NCBI GenBank assembly: GCA_003597955.1
Contig: QZJU01000010.1
Coordinates: forward strand, 1-26,341
DNA length: 26,341 nt
Reading direction: 5' to 3'
Source of the DNA: Candidatus Parcubacteria bacterium
GTDB lineage: Bacteria; Patescibacteriota; Patescibacteriia; PEXW01
Part shown: piece after piece, positions 3,009 to 15,844 of the stretch
Numbering within the stretch: position 1 is the first letter of the stretch
Layout of the letters: each line of letters opens with the position of its first letter
Made by a program: the position numbers and the translations under genes
Notes under the pieces: generated by a model
Told to the model about the DNA's origin: nothing
What the model saw: the letters and a program-made list of their open reading frames with translations, nothing else
Database searches by the model: none

Positions 3009-5267
3009 ATGAATAAAATCGAAAAATTACTGATTTTTGACGCAACCAACAGCCGCACGACGGCCCATGTTTTTATCGCTCGCCCCAGCCCGGCCGAGGA
3101 AAGAACCTTGGGCAAATTGGGTTTTGTGGCGGAAATCGCTTCTGCCGATCGGATAAATCAGGAATTATTAAGCCGTCTGCAGGACTTCTTAAAGGCTGCT
3201 TATTACACCTCCCCGGAAGTCAACTCGGCTGTGGCTTTTGAACATACCATTCAGGCCTGCAATCGATATTTAAGCGAATTAATCAGCGATTTCGGCAGCG
3301 CCTGGGTGGACAACTTTTCCATGGTAATTTTTACCATCCGGGATCAGGAAATTCATTTTGCCGACGCCGGTAGGCTACTGGGCTTCCTTATTCATGATAA
3401 GAAAGTAACCGACCTACTCGGCAATCGGTCGGGTCTGCAAAAAATTAATCCTTTAAAAATTTTCCTTTCTATTTCTTCCGGGGAACTTAAATCCGACAAC
3501 GCCGTGATTTTCAGCACCGCAAACCTGATGGATTACTTTTCCATTGAAAGACTAAGACGCACCATTATGGAAACGCCGTTAGGTGGGGCAGGAAAAAACT
3601 TGGAAGACATTTTACGCAAAGATCCGAATCACGCGGCCTTCGCCGCCATTATCTTGCGGGCACAAGCCGCGGAAGCTTTATTGCCAACCTCTCTGGAAAC
3701 CATCGCGCCAAACGACAATATCAACGGGGCGCCGCAACGCTCAATTGACAATATGCTGGCACAAAACGCACAAACCCAAGAATTTCTAACTCCTTCGATG
3801 TGGCCGTTTATCCAGAAAAGCGCTCGGAAACTATTTACTCGGATAAAAGTATTATTCCGAGCCTGGATTTTACGCAAACCCACTCGCATTTCCGCAGCGC
3901 TGGAAGCCGAAAATTTAAAAATCGAACCCAGTGGCCGCCTGCGGACAGGCCAGGTTATAACCCCTCCACGCTCCCGACTAGTTACCAAAACAATCGGAAA
4001 AACGCTTTTTAATAAGATTCCGAATTTTATTTGGCAAAGCAGCCGCCAAGCCTGGCGAGCGACTCCGAAACTGCTAAATTCAATAAAAAATCTTGGCGGC
4101 AACCTGAAAAGAGCACCCCAGCAAATTCCGGCTACTTTTGAACGCCAAGTCAATACCGTCAAAAGCCTGCCGCAAAAATCCCGCTGGCTTTTCTTGGGCG
4201 TCATCGGCGTAGCCGCAGTCTTAGCGATTGTCTTAATCATCGCCGGCGTGCAACGGCAAAGATCGGCGGCTCAGCAAGTGATCACGGAAAAAATTTCAAA
4301 CATTGAAAAAAATCTGGAAACGGCCCGGTCAGTTTTGCTCTACGGTGATGAAGACCGAGTAAAAACTTTGCTGACTGACGCCAAAAAAGAAATTGAGACC
4401 CTGCCCAATAAATCTAAATCAGACAAAGCCAAGCGTGAAAGTTTGCTGACCGATGTGGAAAGCGTGTTGGCCAAAACCCGCCATGAAATTAAGCCGGAAA
4501 TTAAGACTCTAATCAGCCTTCCGGCGGAAATTAAGCCATTGGGCTTAGCGCTTTTGGGTAACAATTTATACACTCTAAACAGCCAAAATAACTTATTGGT
4601 TTCGGTAAGCCTTCAGACTTCCGAAAAAAAGGACTTGGCAACCTTACCAGGCAATCCTGACATTTTGGAAATTACCACTTTTGGAAGCGGCAACCTGACG
4701 GCGATAACCTCGAATCTGGAAATTATTGAACAGCGGCCGTCCACGCAAAAAGGCACGCGGTATGGCCTGGTCTTGCCAAATCCAAACGCCAACTTAGTAG
4801 GTTTAGTAAACTACAACACAGCGCTTTATTTCATCGATGTTGCCAACAATCTGATCTTAAAGGCAACACGCGCGGGCCCTGGCTATACAGCCACTAACTG
4901 GCTAAAACAAAATGCTAATCTGGATTCGGCGGCGGACATTGCCGTAGACGGAGCCTTGTATGTGCTGACCAAGCAAGGTGAAATCCAGAAATACAACCAA
5001 GGCCAAAGGGCGCAATTGGCCCTTTCCACGGTTGAGCCGCCCTTAACCTCGGCTGTAAAATTCGCGGCCGACACGAACCTTCAGAATTTCTATGTTTTGG
5101 ACACGGCCGGAAAACGCATTGTGGTCTTTACTAAAGCCGGCAAATTCGTCAACCAGTATGTGGGCGATGCTTTGGCCAATGTTAGCGCCTTGGTGGTCAA
5201 TGAAAGAACCAAAAAAATTTACCTTTTAAACAGCAGCGACATTCAAAGCATTGACATTCAAAAGTGA
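3009..5267 (+). CDS. Membrane-anchored PP2C-like / beta-propeller protein
   Basis: This is a 752-residue protein. The N-terminal ~230 residues look like a degenerate PPM/PP2C phosphatase domain: DNFSMVIFTIRDQEIHFADAGR resembles the DN...GDSR core, and GDSR is altered to ADAGR. A basic linker follows, then one transmembrane helix at about residues 392-415 (RWLFLGVIGVAAVLAIVLII). Next come a coiled-coil-rich segment (ISNIEKNLETARSV..., to about residue 500) and a C-terminal repeat region rich in beta strands (YTLNSQNN, YVLTKQGEIQKYNQGQ, FYVLDTAGKRIVVFT, IYLLNSS), consistent with an NHL/YVTN-type propeller outside the membrane. It may couple an extracytoplasmic sensor to a cytoplasmic domain, but that is inference. 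AAGGTGA at 2991-2997 serves as ribosome site. It converges with dinB. Confidence 0.7.
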   Translation: MNKIEKLLIFDATNSRTTAHVFIARPSPAEERTLGKLGFVAEIASADRINQELLSRLQDFLKAAYYTSPEVNSAVAFEHTIQACNRYLSELISDFGSAWVDNFSMVIFTIRDQEIHFADAGRLLGFLIHDKKVTDLLGNRSGLQKINPLKIFLSISSGELKSDNAVIFSTANLMDYFSIERLRRTIMETPLGGAGKNLEDILRKDPNHAAFAAIILRAQAAEALLPTSLETIAPNDNINGAPQRSIDNMLAQNAQTQEFLTPSMWPFIQKSARKLFTRIKVLFRAWILRKPTRISAALEAENLKIEPSGRLRTGQVITPPRSRLVTKTIGKTLFNKIPNFIWQSSRQAWRATPKLLNSIKNLGGNLKRAPQQIPATFERQVNTVKSLPQKSRWLFLGVIGVAAVLAIVLIIAGVQRQRSAAQQVITEKISNIEKNLETARSVLLYGDEDRVKTLLTDAKKEIETLPNKSKSDKAKRESLLTDVESVLAKTRHEIKPEIKTLISLPAEIKPLGLALLGNNLYTLNSQNNLLVSVSLQTSEKKDLATLPGNPDILEITTFGSGNLTAITSNLEIIEQRPSTQKGTRYGLVLPNPNANLVGLVNYNTALYFIDVANNLILKATRAGPGYTATNWLKQNANLDSAADIAVDGALYVLTKQGEIQKYNQGQRAQLALSTVEPPLTSAVKFAADTNLQNFYVLDTAGKRIVVFTKAGKFVNQYVGDALANVSALVVNERTKKIYLLNSSDIQSIDIQK

Positions 5268-5273
5268 AGTGCT

Positions 5274-5293
5274 CCCCGAGCTAATGCTCGGGG
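5274..5293. terminator. Perfect 8-bp hairpin after the PP2C-like gene
   Basis: CCCCGAGC at 5274-5281 pairs with GCTCGGGG at 5286-5293 across a TAAT loop, seven bases after the stop codon. It sits between convergent genes and could end transcription in both directions. There is no U tract, so intrinsic termination is uncertain. Confidence 0.5.
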
Positions 5294-5324
5294 CTTCAGC
5301 CTATCTGGCTTTCGGAGCGGAAAC

Positions 5325-5364
5325 CCCGCACCAGTCCCGCCGGATGGCGGGACTGGTGCGGGGG
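5325..5364. repeat. 18-bp perfect GC-rich palindrome between convergent genes
   Basis: Bases 5325-5342 are perfectly complementary to 5347-5364 around a GGAT loop. The stem is almost all G and C and has no U tract on either side. It may act as a bidirectional roadblock or terminator for the flanking convergent genes. It may instead be a copy of a palindromic repeat family, since short relatives built on GGCGGG/GGCAGGC recur in the window (24945-24963, 25097-25114). Confidence 0.6.
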
Positions 5365-5379
5365 TAAATCCGTCAGGAC

Positions 5380-6591
5380 TTAAATATCCACGCCCACAGT
5401 TTTTCTAAAACCAATCCGGTCCGGAGCATGATGTTTGTCCAATCCAACCAGTTCGCCTTGAGCGATGACTTCTTCGCCGTAGCGATTATTGATTTCATCC
5501 AGAGCTTTTAACAGACGCTCGGGTTTGGGTTTGCTAAACAAAGACAGCTGACCGCTCAAGGGCCTTAAATCAAACAAACCAACGGCAAAAAATTTTGGCG
5601 TGTCTTTCGTGACGCCCGGCGCCAGCATGTTCCAGGCATAACGGAAAAACTTTTGCGTGGTCGTCAAGGGTTCAAAAAGTTTTTGGCTGCCGCCCAAACC
5701 CCCCAAAAGTTCAAAATTCGCATGTGCGTAAACGCTATGCGCTTCCAGCCCCAAAGCGCGCAAGCGCCGACCCGCCCGTTCGGCAAGACGCAAAATCAGA
5801 CTTTTGTGAAAATTCACATCCCGAGTGCGACAGCGCAAAACATGGCTGTGACCGATGGATTTGGGCAATTCGCGAGTTTGCAATCCGCCTAGCTCCAGGC
5901 CGTTCACATTCGCCCACAATTCATAACCTCTGATACCAAAAATTTCCAGCAGGTTGATTGGGCTGTATTGGGCCAACTGATCTAAAGTCTGAATACCCAA
6001 AGCTTGCAGGCGCGGCGCCAAAGCCGCGCCAATGCCCCAGGCTTGCTCCAGTTCCCGGCCCTGCAAATGCGCCAGCCGATTAGCCGGCGTGATGGTTACA
6101 ATGCCGCCCTTGGGCGCAGTGTCGCTGCCGAATTTTGCCAGCCAGCGCGTATAAGCAATGCCCGTGGAACTGCTTAAACATTCCCCCAGCTCCCGCCTGA
6201 TCCGTGCTTTTATTTCCCGGCCGAGCTTAAAAGCCGCCGAAAAAGATTTTACCAGACCCGTCAGATTCAAAAACGCCTCGTCAATGGAATACAATTCAAT
6301 GTCGCTAGTGTACTCCCGGCAAATGCTCATTATGCGCTGGGTGGTCGAATGATATTTCGGCGGGTCAACTTCCACTAATTTTATGGCTGGACATAAAATC
6401 CTGGCCTCTTCCGCCCGGCAGCCAGTCTTCACCCCAAAAGCTTTGGCTTCTTTGCTGGAAGCGATTATGCAGCCCTGCTTGGTCAAGGTCGCGCACACGC
6501 CCACGGGCTGGCCGCGCAAAAAAGGATTGGCCTGCTGCTCCACACTGGCGAAGTAGGAGTTCATGTCAAAATGAAGAATGATTTTTTGCAT
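5380..6591 (-). CDS. dinB: DNA polymerase IV (Y-family, active)
   Basis: This is a translesion polymerase that copies damaged templates. The 403-residue length is slightly above the usual 350-400. Metal ligands are intact: Asp9 in HFDMNSYFASVEQQ and Asp104-Glu105 in YSIDEAFLNL. The palm and fingers are followed by a helix-hairpin-helix region (QAWGIGAALAPRLQALGI) and a little-finger domain (KSIGHSHVLRCRTRD...). A beta-clamp motif may lie near QLSLFSK, around residue 350. The start ATG faces the promoter of the small RNA across a ~60-bp spacer. It differs from the neighbouring Y-family homologue at 662-1522, which has lost the catalytic residues; together they give one active and one dead member close to lexA. 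Confidence 0.93.
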   Translation of the reverse strand: MQKIILHFDMNSYFASVEQQANPFLRGQPVGVCATLTKQGCIIASSKEAKAFGVKTGCRAEEARILCPAIKLVEVDPPKYHSTTQRIMSICREYTSDIELYSIDEAFLNLTGLVKSFSAAFKLGREIKARIRRELGECLSSSTGIAYTRWLAKFGSDTAPKGGIVTITPANRLAHLQGRELEQAWGIGAALAPRLQALGIQTLDQLAQYSPINLLEIFGIRGYELWANVNGLELGGLQTRELPKSIGHSHVLRCRTRDVNFHKSLILRLAERAGRRLRALGLEAHSVYAHANFELLGGLGGSQKLFEPLTTTQKFFRYAWNMLAPGVTKDTPKFFAVGLFDLRPLSGQLSLFSKPKPERLLKALDEINNRYGEEVIAQGELVGLDKHHAPDRIGFRKTVGVDI

Positions 6592-7333: not shown

Positions 7334-7502
7334 GATCTTTACCCCCCCTATTCCAAAAAGCTAAAACCGATGAAATAAGGACTTTTGGCAACAAATTTGC
7401 ATTCTTTTGCTTAAATCTTCTTGCCAAAAAATAATTCCATGCTAAGTTAACACCAGCTCACCTCATGGTCTAGAGCTACTGTTCTTTAAAAAGAACGGAA
7501 AA

Positions 7503-7769
7503 GAATTTGGGAGTTGCTTTTGATGTGATTTTTGAATGTCCCTTGAAGGGAAACCAAGATTGCCATTACTCAAGTAATAGCAAGGGCTTCTTATAATGAG
7601 ATCACCCCTTATGGCCAGGTAGTTCTCCGTCGATGATGAGACCGCAGGTCGCGATGGTGAATCCCTCCTTTGGATGTTCAATCCCGCGATACCCTGCGCA
7701 CGGTATCTCTCGCGAACTACCTCCGGCCTTCAGCGATTTTCACTAAATTGCATCTCAACTCCCAAATTC
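7503..7769 (+). ncRNA. Candidate retron msr/msd RNA
   Basis: A 14-bp perfect inverted repeat closes the unit: a1 at 7503-7516 (GAATTTGGGAGTTG) and a2 at 7756-7769. It extends after a bulge by GATG (7522-7525) / CATC (7751-7754). The 5' part has two short hairpins, as in an msr: TCCCT/AGGGA (7539-7551), and a 10-bp stem at 7560-7569/7574-7583 with a TCAA loop. The 3' part has one long hairpin, as in an msd: GGCCAGGTAGTTC (7613-7625) with GAACTACC-TCC-GGCC (7714-7728), containing an inner stem GATACC/GGTATC (7688-7693/7702-7707). A reverse transcriptase starts 31 nt after a2 on the same strand. This order is the retron hallmark. The branching guanosine and the exact msd ends cannot be placed by eye. 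Confidence 0.75.
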
Positions 7770-7800
7770 CGCTTTAAAAACCAAAGAATTAGGAGAAAAA

Positions 7801-8694
7801 TTGATCCCTAACAATCAAGTTTTCGAACCAGATCAAGCGCCGGCTTTTGAAAAAAGAGTCTTTCGGGATATTAATCCCCTAAGCGGCTCGCGCAAGCTGC
7901 GAATTTTGGGCATGCCCAACGCCGCCATGCGTCAAATTCACCAGAGGCTCATAAAATATCTTCGCATTCAGAAGATAAAATTACCCCATGCCACCTGCTA
8001 TAAACTTGGTGATGGACCCAGAAAAAATGTCGAGCCGCATCGCAAAAACCGATTCTTCTATTTGGTCGACATCCATAACGCTTATGGCAGCGTCCAGCTG
8101 GAAAAACTCGTCCAGGTCTTGTTGTTGTTTGATGCTGAATATCTTATGAATAAACAGCGGACTTCCGAGACTTTGGAAAAGTATTGTTTCTTTCCAAACA
8201 AAAAACCAGCTGGCTTGGTGGTCGGGGCCCCAGCTTCGCCCATATTGTTTAATCTATATGCCGGAGCTTTACTGGATCAAAGGTTAAGTGCTTTTTGCCG
8301 GCAATGGCATATAGTCTATACCCGCTATCTCGATGACCTGACTTTTTCCAGCCGCCGGCCCATAGGCCGTGAAAAAAGAAAGCTGATCAGAAAAATTATT
8401 GCTGAGGCCGGTTTAAGCCTAAGCCATCACAAGGCTAAAGTCTCTGACCTCAAAAAAACCCCGATCGTTGTCACGGGAATTGGCATTGCGCATGGCGGCA
8501 GACTCTTTCTGCCCAGACACTTCTTGCGAAGGTTGCGGGGCTTAATTCACGCGGATCTGAAAAAACCCCGAGTTGATCCCGCGGTCATTCGCGGCATGAT
8601 GGGAGTTTTCTGGTCAATCCGACCAGTAAAATTCAATGCCAGCGAGCAAAAGCTGGTTGATCTGTACCTTAAATGGCAAAAGACAAGATTATAA
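7801..8694 (+). CDS. Retron-type reverse transcriptase
   Basis: The enzyme would prime on its own RNA and make a small RNA-linked cDNA. Motifs run in order: NAxxH-type motif NVEPH (residues 76-80); palm aspartate in VDIHNAYGS (Asp90); VGAPASP (141-147), equivalent to the QGxPxSP turn; catalytic YLDD (176-179) within RYLDDLTFSS; and VTG (224-226) in VVTGIGI. The NAxxH and VTG pair is typical of retron enzymes, and the SQ variant of diversity-generating RTs is absent. At 297 residues it is near the short end for retron RTs, with no extra domain. Translation starts at TTG with AGGAG at 7791-7795. The candidate msr/msd lies directly upstream, and the neighbours downstream are ribosomal genes on the other strand, so no effector is linked. 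Confidence 0.85.
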   Translation: MIPNNQVFEPDQAPAFEKRVFRDINPLSGSRKLRILGMPNAAMRQIHQRLIKYLRIQKIKLPHATCYKLGDGPRKNVEPHRKNRFFYLVDIHNAYGSVQLEKLVQVLLLFDAEYLMNKQRTSETLEKYCFFPNKKPAGLVVGAPASPILFNLYAGALLDQRLSAFCRQWHIVYTRYLDDLTFSSRRPIGREKRKLIRKIIAEAGLSLSHHKAKVSDLKKTPIVVTGIGIAHGGRLFLPRHFLRRLRGLIHADLKKPRVDPAVIRGMMGVFWSIRPVKFNASEQKLVDLYLKWQKTRL

Positions 8695-12674: not shown

Positions 12675-13304
12675 TTATTTTTTAGGCTGACCGACCAGGG
12701 GCACAAATTGGAAGCCAGGCTGGACCTGCTTTTCCAGTTTGCCTTGAAGATCCTTGCTAAGCAAAACCAAGTCTTGAATATCCTCCCCTACCGGCATTAT
12801 CAACCGTCCACCGTGGGCCAATTGGTCAATTAATGGTTTGGGTACTTCCGAAGCGGCGGCCGAAACCACAATACGATCATAAGGAGCGTGTTCGGGTAAA
12901 CCCAGCCAGCCGTTACCAATTCGTGTTTCGATATTAGTAAAGTGGTAGGAATACAAATGGTGCTTGGTCAATTCTGTTAATTCCGGGATGATGTCCACAG
13001 CGTAAACAAAGCCGCTGGGTCCGACAATTTCCGCCAATAAGCCCGTTAACCAACCCGAACCGCAACCCACATCCAAAACTCGGTTACCGGGCTCAACTTG
13101 CAGGAGTTCCAACATCTGCGCAACGGTCGAGGGCTGGGAGATGCTTTGGCCTTTGCCAATCGGCAAGGGCGCATCTTCATAAGCCTGGGTATGGAAATCT
13201 TCATGCACAAAATCTATGCGCCGGACTTTTTGAAAAGCCTTAATAATATTTTCAGAATACAATACGCCTTTGCCAATTAATTCTTTAACAAATGCTTCCT
13301 GCAT
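12675..13304 (-). CDS. pcm: Protein-L-isoaspartate O-methyltransferase
   Basis: The enzyme methylates isoaspartyl residues so that damaged proteins can be repaired. Its 209 residues show the family start (VKELIGKGVLYSENIIKAFQ), the substrate-site motif PLPIGKGQSISQPSTVAQML and the SAM-binding VLDVGCGSGWLTGLLA with VYAVDIIPEL as motif II. GGRLIMPVGE near the C-terminus is also typical. It heads a likely operon pcm-manC-mltG-pyrH. An extended -10 box lies exactly 6 nt before the ATG, so its mRNA is probably leaderless. It is divergent from the leader ORF and isonitrile-synthase-like genes. Confidence 0.93.
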   Translation of the reverse strand: MQEAFVKELIGKGVLYSENIIKAFQKVRRIDFVHEDFHTQAYEDAPLPIGKGQSISQPSTVAQMLELLQVEPGNRVLDVGCGSGWLTGLLAEIVGPSGFVYAVDIIPELTELTKHHLYSYHFTNIETRIGNGWLGLPEHAPYDRIVVSAAASEVPKPLIDQLAHGGRLIMPVGEDIQDLVLLSKDLQGKLEKQVQPGFQFVPLVGQPKK

Positions 13305-13326: not shown

Positions 13327-13354
13327 TTGACAGGATTTTACAGGGCTATAAAAT
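13327..13354 (+). promoter_or_regulatory. Promoter of the leader ORF and isonitrile-synthase-like genes
   Basis: A consensus -35 TTGACA (13327-13332) and -10 TAAAAT (13349-13354) have a 16-bp spacing. Six bases separate the -10 from the ATG at 13361, so the first translated codon would sit at the 5' end of the RNA. Confidence 0.7.
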
Positions 13355-13360
13355 AAGCGT

Positions 13361-13486
13361 ATGAAAGACTTAAACAGTCGGAAAATCTATAAACATAACC
13401 CCAAAAACCAAAATGCTTATTGGTTTATGGGCATGTTATATATTTTGGGCAACTCGCCGGCTGTTCTAGCTTTTCGTATGCCTTGA
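13361..13486 (+). CDS. Candidate leader peptide with Tyr-Trp-Phe
   Basis: This 41-codon ORF begins where the upstream promoter should start transcription, so it would be translated from a leaderless RNA. Residues 20-22 are Tyr-Trp-Phe, with further Tyr at 10 and 27; the stretch AYWFMGMLYILG is hydrophobic. Codons 32-34 contain CGCCGGCT (13455-13462), which can pair with the 3' arm of the terminator at 13514-13539. That layout resembles amino-acid attenuators. The next gene belongs to a family whose known members use tyrosine or tryptophan. It might instead be a small membrane peptide gene with its own terminator. I recognise no homologue. Confidence 0.45.
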   Translation: MKDLNSRKIYKHNPKNQNAYWFMGMLYILGNSPAVLAFRMP

Positions 13487-13513
13487 GGCATTAATTTACA
13501 CGAAATTCGTTGA

Positions 13514-13539
13514 CGCCGGCACAGAAGCCGGCGATTTTT
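13514..13539 (+). terminator. Terminator or attenuator before the first PvcA-like gene
   Basis: CGCCGGC (13514-13520) pairs with GCCGGCG (13527-13533) and is followed by ATTTTT. The 3' arm AGCCGGCG (13526-13533) is also perfectly complementary over 8 bp to CGCCGGCT at 13455-13462 inside the leader ORF, giving a ready-made antiterminator. Confidence 0.7.
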
Positions 13540-13604
13540 GTTGCAAACTAAAACTGTTCTTTAATAAACAATTGGGTTAATGGCCCACCAGAAAGGAGAC
13601 TGCC

Positions 13605-14663
13605 ATGGTTGTACATGGTTTTGACAAACTGACCGAACTTTTTTCGGCTAACCTAAATAACGAAAAAATTATCGGTCAAATTTGGAATGTAATGCAGGAT
13701 CCCCAATTTCGGAAATCTTCCAGTAAGGATTTAAACGACGGTTCTGCCCAAGCATATCTTGAGCAGATCAAGCACTGGGTTAAAGAGGATTTACCCATAG
13801 GGTTTGTATTAATCGCTCTGCCGTGGAAGTGCTGGCGAAATCCGTTAAAAACTAACCGCAAGACGCCGGATTTGGGCGAGTTCGCTTTTTTGCAGCAGCT
13901 AAAAAGGTTGGCTGACGAAATCAGTAAAGTTTATAAACCGGGTGCGTCTTTCACGATTCTGACCGAAGGCGAAGTTTATCACGAAATTTTTGGCATTCCG
14001 CTCGTCGAAATCTTGCGTTACCAGATGGGCATTGAAAAAATGCTAAAAGCGAATAATTTCTACCTTCGGGTGGAATTAAGAAGCTTTGGGGAGATTTTAG
14101 CGAAGTTTCCGGAATTTCCGGAGCGTTATCAGGAACAGCTTGAGTGCATCAGTAAATCTTTTGATCCCTTGGCTGACACTTCCAGTGATAACTACAAAAT
14201 TTTCAAGACCATGTTGACTTCGACTGAAGTCACGCACTTGGACATTCGGACTCTGCAAAAAATTTTCGGCCAAAGAATCATCGGGGAGGAAAAATATGAA
14301 CTCACCCCGAGTGAGAGCCGGATTCGTCAGGAGCTGGAATCGCAGGCGCGAAAATTAACCGCAAAATATTTAGCCTTTAATAAGGCCAAACATCTTGTGG
14401 GCAAAAACGGAGCAATTCCAGAGGTTTTCCCGCACCACTTGTATATTTCAATCACTCAAAAACCTGGCCGTTACGCTTTGCACGCCATTCACCCGAAAAC
14501 CAAGCTCTTGCCCCACCATGGTGTTCCGGTTTGGCTGGCCCAGCAAAAACGCGTGGAGATAATGTGGTTGAATTCAGTTTTGCGCCAACCAAATTTTTTC
14601 CAGCCCGTTTTTATCGAAAATGACGAAGAGAATCTGCCGTATTACTACGTGGAGGCGGGCTGA
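13605..14663 (+). CDS. PvcA/DIT1-like protein (isonitrile synthase family), copy 1
   Basis: The family joins a carbon unit from a pentose phosphate to the amino group of tyrosine or tryptophan to give an isonitrile. Core motifs over residues 84-150: LPWK...KTNRKTPDLGE matches the K-x-N-x-x-x-x-PDxGE signature, and KVYKPGASFTILTEGEVYHEIFGI matches YxPGAxxxIxxDGxxFxDxxGV. Near the C-terminus HAIHPKTKLLPHHGVPVW matches the SIHP and H-x-V motifs. The 352-residue length is normal. A clear ribosome site (AAAGGAGA, 13591-13598) precedes the ATG. The upstream leader ORF and attenuator suggest amino-acid control, and a related second copy follows. Substrate and product are unknown, and no downstream oxygenase is linked. 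Confidence 0.75.
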   Translation: MVVHGFDKLTELFSANLNNEKIIGQIWNVMQDPQFRKSSSKDLNDGSAQAYLEQIKHWVKEDLPIGFVLIALPWKCWRNPLKTNRKTPDLGEFAFLQQLKRLADEISKVYKPGASFTILTEGEVYHEIFGIPLVEILRYQMGIEKMLKANNFYLRVELRSFGEILAKFPEFPERYQEQLECISKSFDPLADTSSDNYKIFKTMLTSTEVTHLDIRTLQKIFGQRIIGEEKYELTPSESRIRQELESQARKLTAKYLAFNKAKHLVGKNGAIPEVFPHHLYISITQKPGRYALHAIHPKTKLLPHHGVPVWLAQQKRVEIMWLNSVLRQPNFFQPVFIENDEENLPYYYVEAG

Positions 14664-14668
14664 ACTAT

Positions 14669-14708
14669 ATAGGCAAGGCGGTTTCATGACTGCCTTGCCT
14701 ATCAATTT
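14669..14708 (+). terminator. Terminator after PvcA-like copy 1
   Basis: ATAGGCAAGGC (14669-14679) pairs perfectly with GCCTTGCCTAT (14692-14702) and CAATTTT follows. It separates the two paralogues, so the second copy probably uses its own -10 (TATAAT at 14723-14728; no good -35 seen). Confidence 0.75.
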
Positions 14709-14746: not shown

Positions 14747-15844
14747 ATGCAAAAATATAATTCAGTGGTTTTCCCTTTCACCAGATTTAATAAACTCAAT
14801 GACCTTAGAGTCCGAGACAACTTTGTCGGCAAAAAGGTTATTTCCTTAAACGAACTAAGAGCTCTGTTGCCAAGCGGAAATTTTAGCAAACTTATGCAGC
14901 GCGGTGGAAACCCTGCGGATAAAATTTTTAATTTATTTTTGCATCCGCAAATTAGATTTGGACCCAAGCGGTTTGTCTTGGAGAAAAAAAGCCACTGGCT
15001 AGCCAAAATAAACGGATTCGTTAAAAGCCGGCGGCCTTTGCTTTTTACCATACTTGGCTTTCCAGGCAAAGCGCCGGTGCCGCTAAAAACTAATCGAAGC
15101 CTGCCGGATTTTGGCGAAATTCTTGCTTTGCAGAGATTATTTGATCTTACCCAAATAATTAAAAAAATTTACAAACCCGGGGCAAAAGTCATCATCGTAA
15201 CCGAAGGGGTTCTGGGTGATTTTATCGGACTCGATCCTCAAGAAACAAGAGCTTATGAGAAACAGCTGGCCTTTTTCGCAAAAAAACTTGGCTGGCATAA
15301 GGCCTTAGACTTCTTACCGTTGCGCGACTTAACGAAATTGAAAAATTTTGAAGTTTTTTTTAAAAAAAATATAAGCCTCTTGAAAAGGGGAAAAAATAGA
15401 TCGGCAGCGCAAAAAAAATTTCAGGCGGCCTTTAATTCGGTGTTTCACCTGGTAAATTGCCGAGGTTTTGCTTTGGACATCATTGCCGACGCTTACCAAA
15501 CCAGACCAAAAACTAAAAAGGGTCGGCATCTAAGAAACCAGCTCATTCAGAAAGCGTCCCAGGCGGTCTGGCAATATCTCGCTTTTTTAAAAACCCGCGA
15601 TGATTTGCGCTTTTTGGAAAAAAGGGCTTCACAGGCTTTGGCTTTAACTGTTTCACCAAAGCCCTACCGTCTGGGTTTTAACTTAGTCAGCAAAACAAAT
15701 AAACTTCTCCCCCATCATGGGGTTCCGCTTGGCACGGAAATCCGTTATTTGATAGACATACGAAGATCTAATAAAAAATTCATCCAAATCTACCTAAAAG
15801 CAGATAAAGAAAATTTACCCTTTCTTTATCTGCTTAAAAAATAA
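14747..15844 (+). CDS. PvcA/DIT1-like protein, diverged copy 2
   Basis: A paralogue of the preceding gene. It keeps the core VPLKTNRSLPDFGEILALQRL and IYKPGAKVIIVTEGVLGDFIGLD (about residues 111-165) and the C-terminal KLLPHHGVPLG. The IHP motif of copy 1 is replaced (FNLVSKTNKLL), and the middle region is Lys-rich and poorly conserved (KKNISLLKRGKNRSAAQKKF). It may therefore have a different substrate or be non-catalytic. The N-terminal ~90 residues are unlike copy 1. A 15-bp hairpin (15798-15812 with 15821-15835) lies inside its last codons. The ATG at 14747 has no Shine-Dalgarno site; the -10 is about 18 nt upstream. Confidence 0.68.
   Translation: MQKYNSVVFPFTRFNKLNDLRVRDNFVGKKVISLNELRALLPSGNFSKLMQRGGNPADKIFNLFLHPQIRFGPKRFVLEKKSHWLAKINGFVKSRRPLLFTILGFPGKAPVPLKTNRSLPDFGEILALQRLFDLTQIIKKIYKPGAKVIIVTEGVLGDFIGLDPQETRAYEKQLAFFAKKLGWHKALDFLPLRDLTKLKNFEVFFKKNISLLKRGKNRSAAQKKFQAAFNSVFHLVNCRGFALDIIADAYQTRPKTKKGRHLRNQLIQKASQAVWQYLAFLKTRDDLRFLEKRASQALALTVSPKPYRLGFNLVSKTNKLLPHHGVPLGTEIRYLIDIRRSNKKFIQIYLKADKENLPFLYLLKK

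Follow-up and report, generated by a model that had tools for sequence, protein, structure and literature searches.

A Candidate Attenuator-Like Leader ahead of Tandem Isonitrile-Synthase-Like Genes in a CPR Bacterium

Does the DNA between the divergent genes pcm (12675-13304) and pvcA1 control how much transcript reaches an isonitrile-synthase-like gene, and if so, to what does it respond? A first-pass annotation of this locus had proposed an attenuator in which a ribosome stalled at Tyr-Trp-Phe codons of a 41-codon open reading frame (ORF) frees an antiterminator strand and thereby permits transcription of pvcA1. The window analyzed here, a stretch of 26,341 nucleotides, is one contig of a 990-kb genome whose relatives point to a CPR/Patescibacteria-type bacterium as the host. 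Genome-wide statistics were taken on 402 kb of sampled stretches of the same genome. The promoter, the ORF with its Tyr-Trp-Phe run, the terminator, and a second copy of one terminator arm are at exactly the positions that had been assigned to them (Table 1). A long hairpin over nearly the whole ORF, a second gene of the same family (pvcA2), and a hairpin between the two genes were absent from that annotation. The best reading of these elements, to which we assign a probability of about 0.45, is that they form a conditional-termination (attenuator-like) 5' leader of a pvcA1(-pvcA2) unit.

Table 1. Features of the leader and of the genes that follow it
Feature	Position	Strand	Remarks
Sigma-70-type promoter, TTGACA-16-TAAAAT	13327-13354	+	11/12 consensus match
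Long imperfect hairpin	13357-13481	+	Encloses the ATG and nearly all of the ORF; 49 pairs, including 5 G-U
41-codon ORF, MKDLNSRKIYKHNPKNQNAYWFMGMLYILGNSPAVLAFRMP	13361-13486	+	Without Shine-Dalgarno; leaderless geometry; weak coding score; no homologue
Segment 1, AACAGTCGG	13373-13381	+	Pairs with 13457-13465; anti-antiterminator strand
Tyr-Trp-Phe codons, TAT TGG TTT (codons 20-22)	13418-13426	+	Right arm of the hairpin's apical stem
Segment 2, CGCCGGCTGTT	13455-13465	+	Antiterminator strand; pairs with segment 1, 13515-13520, or 13526-13533
Intrinsic terminator (segments 3 and 4 and U-tract)	13514-13539	+	CGCCGGC-ACAGAA-GCCGGCG-ATTTTT; stem 13514-13533
pvcA1, divergent isonitrile-synthase-like gene	13605-14663	+	PF05141; AAAGGAG ribosome-binding site
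15-bp hairpin between pvcA1 and pvcA2	14669-14702	+	Poor U-tract
pvcA2, second PF05141 gene	14747-15844	+	Directly downstream of pvcA1; 28% identical to it

Promoter, small ORF, and terminator

The consensus promoter reported 6 bp ahead of the ORF was borne out, with the -10 box ending 6 nt before the ATG. Promoter sites of this grade are more frequent than expected by chance: three were observed in the 26 kb versus 0.47 expected, and the chance of one falling in the leader's 300 bp was P = 0.008. Ranked against probable transcription-unit starts of the genome, the leader promoter scores at the 92nd percentile. The predicted +1, at about 13361, is the A of the ORF's ATG. In the sampled stretches, a -10 box ended exactly 6 nt before the ATG at 4.7% of unambiguous starts versus about 1%, and six genes combined this offset with a -35 match versus about one gene per other offset. 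Because this offset is enriched and the ORF has the same geometry, the ORF may be translated as a leaderless mRNA from a transcript starting at its AUG. Shine-Dalgarno motifs are scarce in the host genome (12% of genes versus 6% at a control position).

Neither the ORF nor its aromatic run is more than mildly unusual. An ORF of 41 codons or longer arose in 4% of dinucleotide shuffles of the leader (1.8% if only ATG starts were counted), as did three consecutive aromatic codons, and the codon score was borderline (P = 0.05 versus shuffles; 11th percentile of real genes). The Tyr-Trp-Phe codons are in the T-rich right arm of the hairpin, where 13405-13411 pairs with 13420-13426. Thus, A-rich codons (Lys, Asn) on the left arm and T-rich codons (Phe, Tyr, Leu) on the right arm can be a by-product of hairpin pairing.

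A stringent screen (at least 6 bp of perfect stem, at least 4 GC pairs, and 5 T in 8) over both strands of the window picked out the terminator and no other site. Because pcm is divergent, this terminator can act only on a transcript begun in roughly 210 bp upstream. Terminators in such an orphan leader position are rare, with only 3 in 402 kb, and the fact that this one has no upstream gene to end supports the leader reading. The best promoter between the terminator and pvcA1 reached only the 22nd percentile of transcription-unit starts and the 44th percentile of in-operon positions. The TTGCAA/TAATAA pair at 13541-13567, raised previously as a possible promoter for pvcA1, is not credible (7/12 match, 15-nt spacer). 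A prematurely terminated leader is plausible because the terminator can be reached only from that short upstream interval and no credible promoter separates it from pvcA1. Furthermore, with a strong promoter before the terminator and none above background after it, pvcA1 expression probably depends on terminator read-through.

Alternative pairings and response to ribosome position

The hairpin that encloses the ORF is much stronger than expected by chance. The 128-nt stretch 13357-13484 folded at -44.4 kcal/mol versus -23.8 +/- 3.2 kcal/mol in shuffles (z = -6.4, 0/500), in a test whose boundaries were picked after the fold was seen. Folded from the predicted +1, which would leave the hairpin's 4 bp upstream of that position out of the RNA, the value was -36.3 kcal/mol (z = -4.0). 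The fold was also stronger than the peptide and codon usage of the ORF account for (P = 0.023 and 0.012; 0.001 with the 4 upstream nt included).

The second arm copy (13455-13462) is, as had been noted, an exact 8-nt complement of the terminator 3' arm (P = 0.003 when 13355-13513 was dinucleotide-shuffled), and the complementarity extends to 11/12. The computed pairings upstream of pvcA1 include an intrinsic terminator and an antiterminator that are mutually exclusive, as in a classical ribosome-mediated amino acid attenuator. In the computed fold of the full-length leader free of ribosomes, segments 1 and 2 were paired (P = 0.98) and the terminator was formed (P = 0.99). In this computed state the start codon is enclosed in the first hairpin and the terminator is left free to form, with the hairpin in the role of an anti-antiterminator.

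To examine ribosome stalling, a ribosome footprint was moved codon by codon along the nascent RNA, which was folded at the length at which segment 3 has just emerged (half-way) and at full length. The E. coli trp leader, verified against RefSeq, served as a control under the identical procedure. This is equilibrium folding, with kinetic effects outside its reach. In the half-way transcript, the probability of pairing between segments 2 and 3, P(2:3), was 0.77 without a ribosome and 0.76, 0.69, and 0.69 with the ribosome at Tyr20, Trp21, and Phe22, so no switch to the antiterminator by stalling at these codons was computed. For the trp leader, P(2:3) rose from 0.19 when empty to 0.49 and 0.86 at the two Trp codons and was 0.18 at the stop codon. 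Thus, the method detects a known switch and finds none at Tyr-Trp-Phe. The aromatic-stalled state stayed near the empty state at all three temperatures and for each of three footprints and four transcript ends. The leader stop codon is located some 20 nt beyond segment 2. With the ribosome there, P(2:3) was 0.90 under the default footprint; with the smallest footprint only, it fell to 0.20-0.57, a drop that would amount to a weak switch in the direction that had been proposed.

The only robust switching position was at the beginning of the ORF. A ribosome at codons 2-11 covers segment 1, which raised P(2:3) to 0.99 in the half-way transcript and lowered the full-length terminator probability to 0.34-0.95. 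At full length the terminator won in nearly every ribosome state, with probabilities of at least 0.9 except at some early codons. The proposed attenuator of pvcA1 is therefore retained in part: the promoter-terminator leader, the exclusive pairings, and a true PvcA/DIT1 gene stand, whereas control by Tyr-Trp-Phe codons is not supported by the stall test.

These results, namely sequence elements of nonrandom strength and computed alternative pairings, suggest the following mode of action, in which we infer where transcription starts, that the ORF is translated, and that any regulatory switching takes place in the cell. Transcription would begin at about 13361. If no ribosome is present on the 5' end, segments 1 and 2 would pair in the long hairpin, the terminator would form, and most transcripts would stop near 13540. 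If the 5' end is occupied, most simply by a ribosome on the leaderless AUG, within about the first 11 codons, segment 2 would become available for pairing with segment 3, and read-through by RNA polymerase into pvcA1 would follow. Such a leader would sense translation initiation or early elongation rather than the Tyr-Trp-Phe codons.

Conservation, known leaders, and competing explanations

The leader is at present a single-genome case with computed support. Its DNA is found once in the host genome, and no real match was found in 115 relatives, phages, or plasmids. A covariance model of the hairpin, searched on both strands of 144 genomes, matched only itself. The best match to the leader peptide had an E value of 0.009, with stop codons within the match. 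Rfam searches for riboswitch, T-box, and small-RNA families gave nothing above the gathering thresholds, and a permissive scan gave chance-level matches. It had been suggested that leaders upstream of PvcA-like homologues be aligned for covariation. No such leader was found, and hence no covariation, when these loci were inspected by eye; the homologues share only about 22-30% identity with pvcA1, and upstream of them there is mostly another gene or a short spacer. In the same-genus genome, the contig ends 11 bp upstream of pcm, i.e., at the place of the leader. Given that no relatives of the leader were found and given this contig break, covariation weighs neither for nor against the pairings. 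A multi-copy element was rejected as the identity of the leader because of its single copy, as was an integron attC site, for which the end motifs are absent by eye. A retron noncoding RNA (ncRNA) was rejected because the retron-like reverse transcriptase (RT) gene of the window is 5 kb away and has its own ncRNA candidate.

The closest anatomical parallel appears to be the leaderless ilvBNC attenuator of Corynebacterium glutamicum, in which a leaderless leader-peptide mRNA forms three alternative hairpins with a terminator before the structural gene; the first hairpin shields the start and acts as an anti-antiterminator, close homologues retain the control codons (Leu, Val), and mutations support terminator function (PMC11857589). 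The leader described here shares, as computed, the leaderless geometry, the three alternative hairpins, the start-shielding anti-antiterminator, and the terminator before the gene. It differs in that no conservation was found, the computed switch does not depend on the aromatic codons, and the downstream gene is not an amino acid biosynthesis gene. Sinorhizobium meliloti trpL (rnTrpL) is likewise a leaderless leader-peptide mRNA with an attenuator terminator and an aromatic codon run, in a 14-codon ORF that regulates Trp synthesis (PMC7298713). The likeness covers the geometry, the type of terminator, and the aromatic run, in contrast to the 41 codons and the Tyr/Trp-consuming type of enzyme found here. 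Pairings 1:2, 2:3, and 3:4 can be drawn for both this leader and the E. coli trp leader, but in the latter a ribosome at the stop codon covers segment 2 and stalling at Trp switches the fold; here, stalling at Tyr-Trp-Phe did not switch the computed fold, and the stop codon is past segment 2, with an effect that varied with the footprint. The best reading is a species-specific, attenuator-like leader that resembles leaderless ilvBNC attenuation.

It is possible, but doubtful, that the locus instead contains a stand-alone small-RNA or small-mRNA gene, consisting of the promoter, a rod-shaped RNA of about 180 nt, and the terminator, with pvcA1 transcribed from its own weak promoter past 13540. 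Promoter, hairpin, and terminator do make a complete transcription unit, and pvcA1 carries its own good ribosome-binding site, of a kind (AAAGGAG) uncommon in the host genome. Read-through feeding pvcA1 is favored over an independent small RNA because promoters past the terminator are weak and pcm is divergent; furthermore, no second copy of the RNA was found in the genome or in 144 relatives, and it has no Rfam match. It is unlikely that the hairpin is a nonregulatory remnant, either an inverted-repeat/foldback element or a chance hairpin, that came to lie between promoter and gene alongside a constitutive partial terminator. As would suit such a remnant, either strand of the palindrome can fold (-44.4 and -37.3 kcal/mol), the hairpin is confined to the host genome, and the break in the same-genus contig indicates that the region may be variable. 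However, the hairpin is single copy, its ends show no target-site duplication, and its placement between promoter and terminator is precise, with a matching antiterminator strand.

A ribosome-mediated attenuator that senses Tyr, Trp, or Phe at codons 20-22 is very improbable. The TAT-TGG-TTT run, the terminator, and the complementary strand all exist, PvcA-type enzymes take Tyr or Trp as substrate, and among the structures matched by the pvcA1 model is Tyr-bound PIsnA. However, the stalled fold is the same as the empty fold, unlike that of the trp control, the stop codon is past segment 2, and the aromatic run has a 4% probability by chance and is in a T-rich hairpin arm for which no conservation was found. 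In addition, starvation turning on a Tyr/Trp-consuming enzyme would reverse the logic of classical attenuators. Nearly as improbable is a leaderless three-hairpin attenuator that couples translation of the small ORF, possibly in an aromatic-codon-dependent manner by a kinetic route, to the tandem isonitrile-synthase-like genes. If the kinetic, aromatic-dependent version were true, it would represent substrate-linked attenuation of an isonitrile pathway in a CPR bacterium. Should the preferred conditional-termination leader attenuate, a lineage for which a nonexhaustive literature search found little work on regulatory RNA would have a leader controlled by termination, located on a probable leaderless mRNA before a rare specialized-metabolism gene pair.

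The isonitrile-synthase-like genes and other features of the window

The assignment of pvcA1 to the PvcA/DIT1 family withstood scrutiny. The protein matched PF05141 with E = 1e-24 (87.8 bits versus a cut-off of 26.4), and its AlphaFold2 model (pLDDT 76.7, pTM 0.72) matched PvcA (PDB 3e59, Z 22.5) and PIsnA (9dh4, Z 21.6; 9dhm, Z about 21), with tyrosyl-tRNA synthetases next at Z 12 and below. Family profile and modeled fold together indicate that pvcA1 is a genuine PvcA/DIT1 relative. The family match and overall fold (Z 21-22.5) are shared with PvcA/IsnA, in contrast to an identity of 20-22% and a score of 38.2 versus a cut-off of 600 bits for the L-tyrosine isonitrile synthase equivalog NF045653. 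Neither pvcA1 nor pvcA2 is certified as a tyrosine isonitrile synthase by NCBIfam, and the substrate and activity of pvcA1 are putative.

Members of the PvcA/DIT1 family were found in 7 of 166 good-quality relatives. All relatives found for pvcA1 were about 22-30% identical to it, whereas pvcA2 has closer relatives elsewhere: 33-38% in CPR genomes, 31% in Devosia crocina, and 36% for a partial gene in a Lokiarchaeota bin. Some of these are in HAD-hydrolase/ROK-kinase clusters; for example, the Nealsonbacteria relative is between a HAD hydrolase gene and a ROK kinase gene. Two genes upstream of that relative, a 533-aa protein (L020:1367-2968) without a Pfam match has weak BLAST similarity to pvcA2 (E 2e-6) and may be a highly divergent PvcA-like partner. 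In the Devosia locus there is a recognizable second PF05141 gene (L022:1417-2853).

Elsewhere in the window there is a candidate retron at 7503-8694, with a 297-aa RT (Pfam RVT_1; PADLOC retron RT type II-A, 112 bits). Upstream of the RT is a strongly folded stretch (7498-7772, z = -6.0), closed by an inverted repeat of 14 bp without mismatches (7503-7516/7756-7769) like the a1/a2 ends of a retron msr-msd; Rfam gave no match for this ncRNA candidate. Two genes are of Y-family polymerase type, a short one at 662-1522 that adjoins a LexA-like gene (1-570) and another at 5380-6591. The strongest fold of the window is at 5255-5390, where very stable hairpins, one with an 18-bp stem, are located between two convergent genes and probably constitute a bidirectional terminator.
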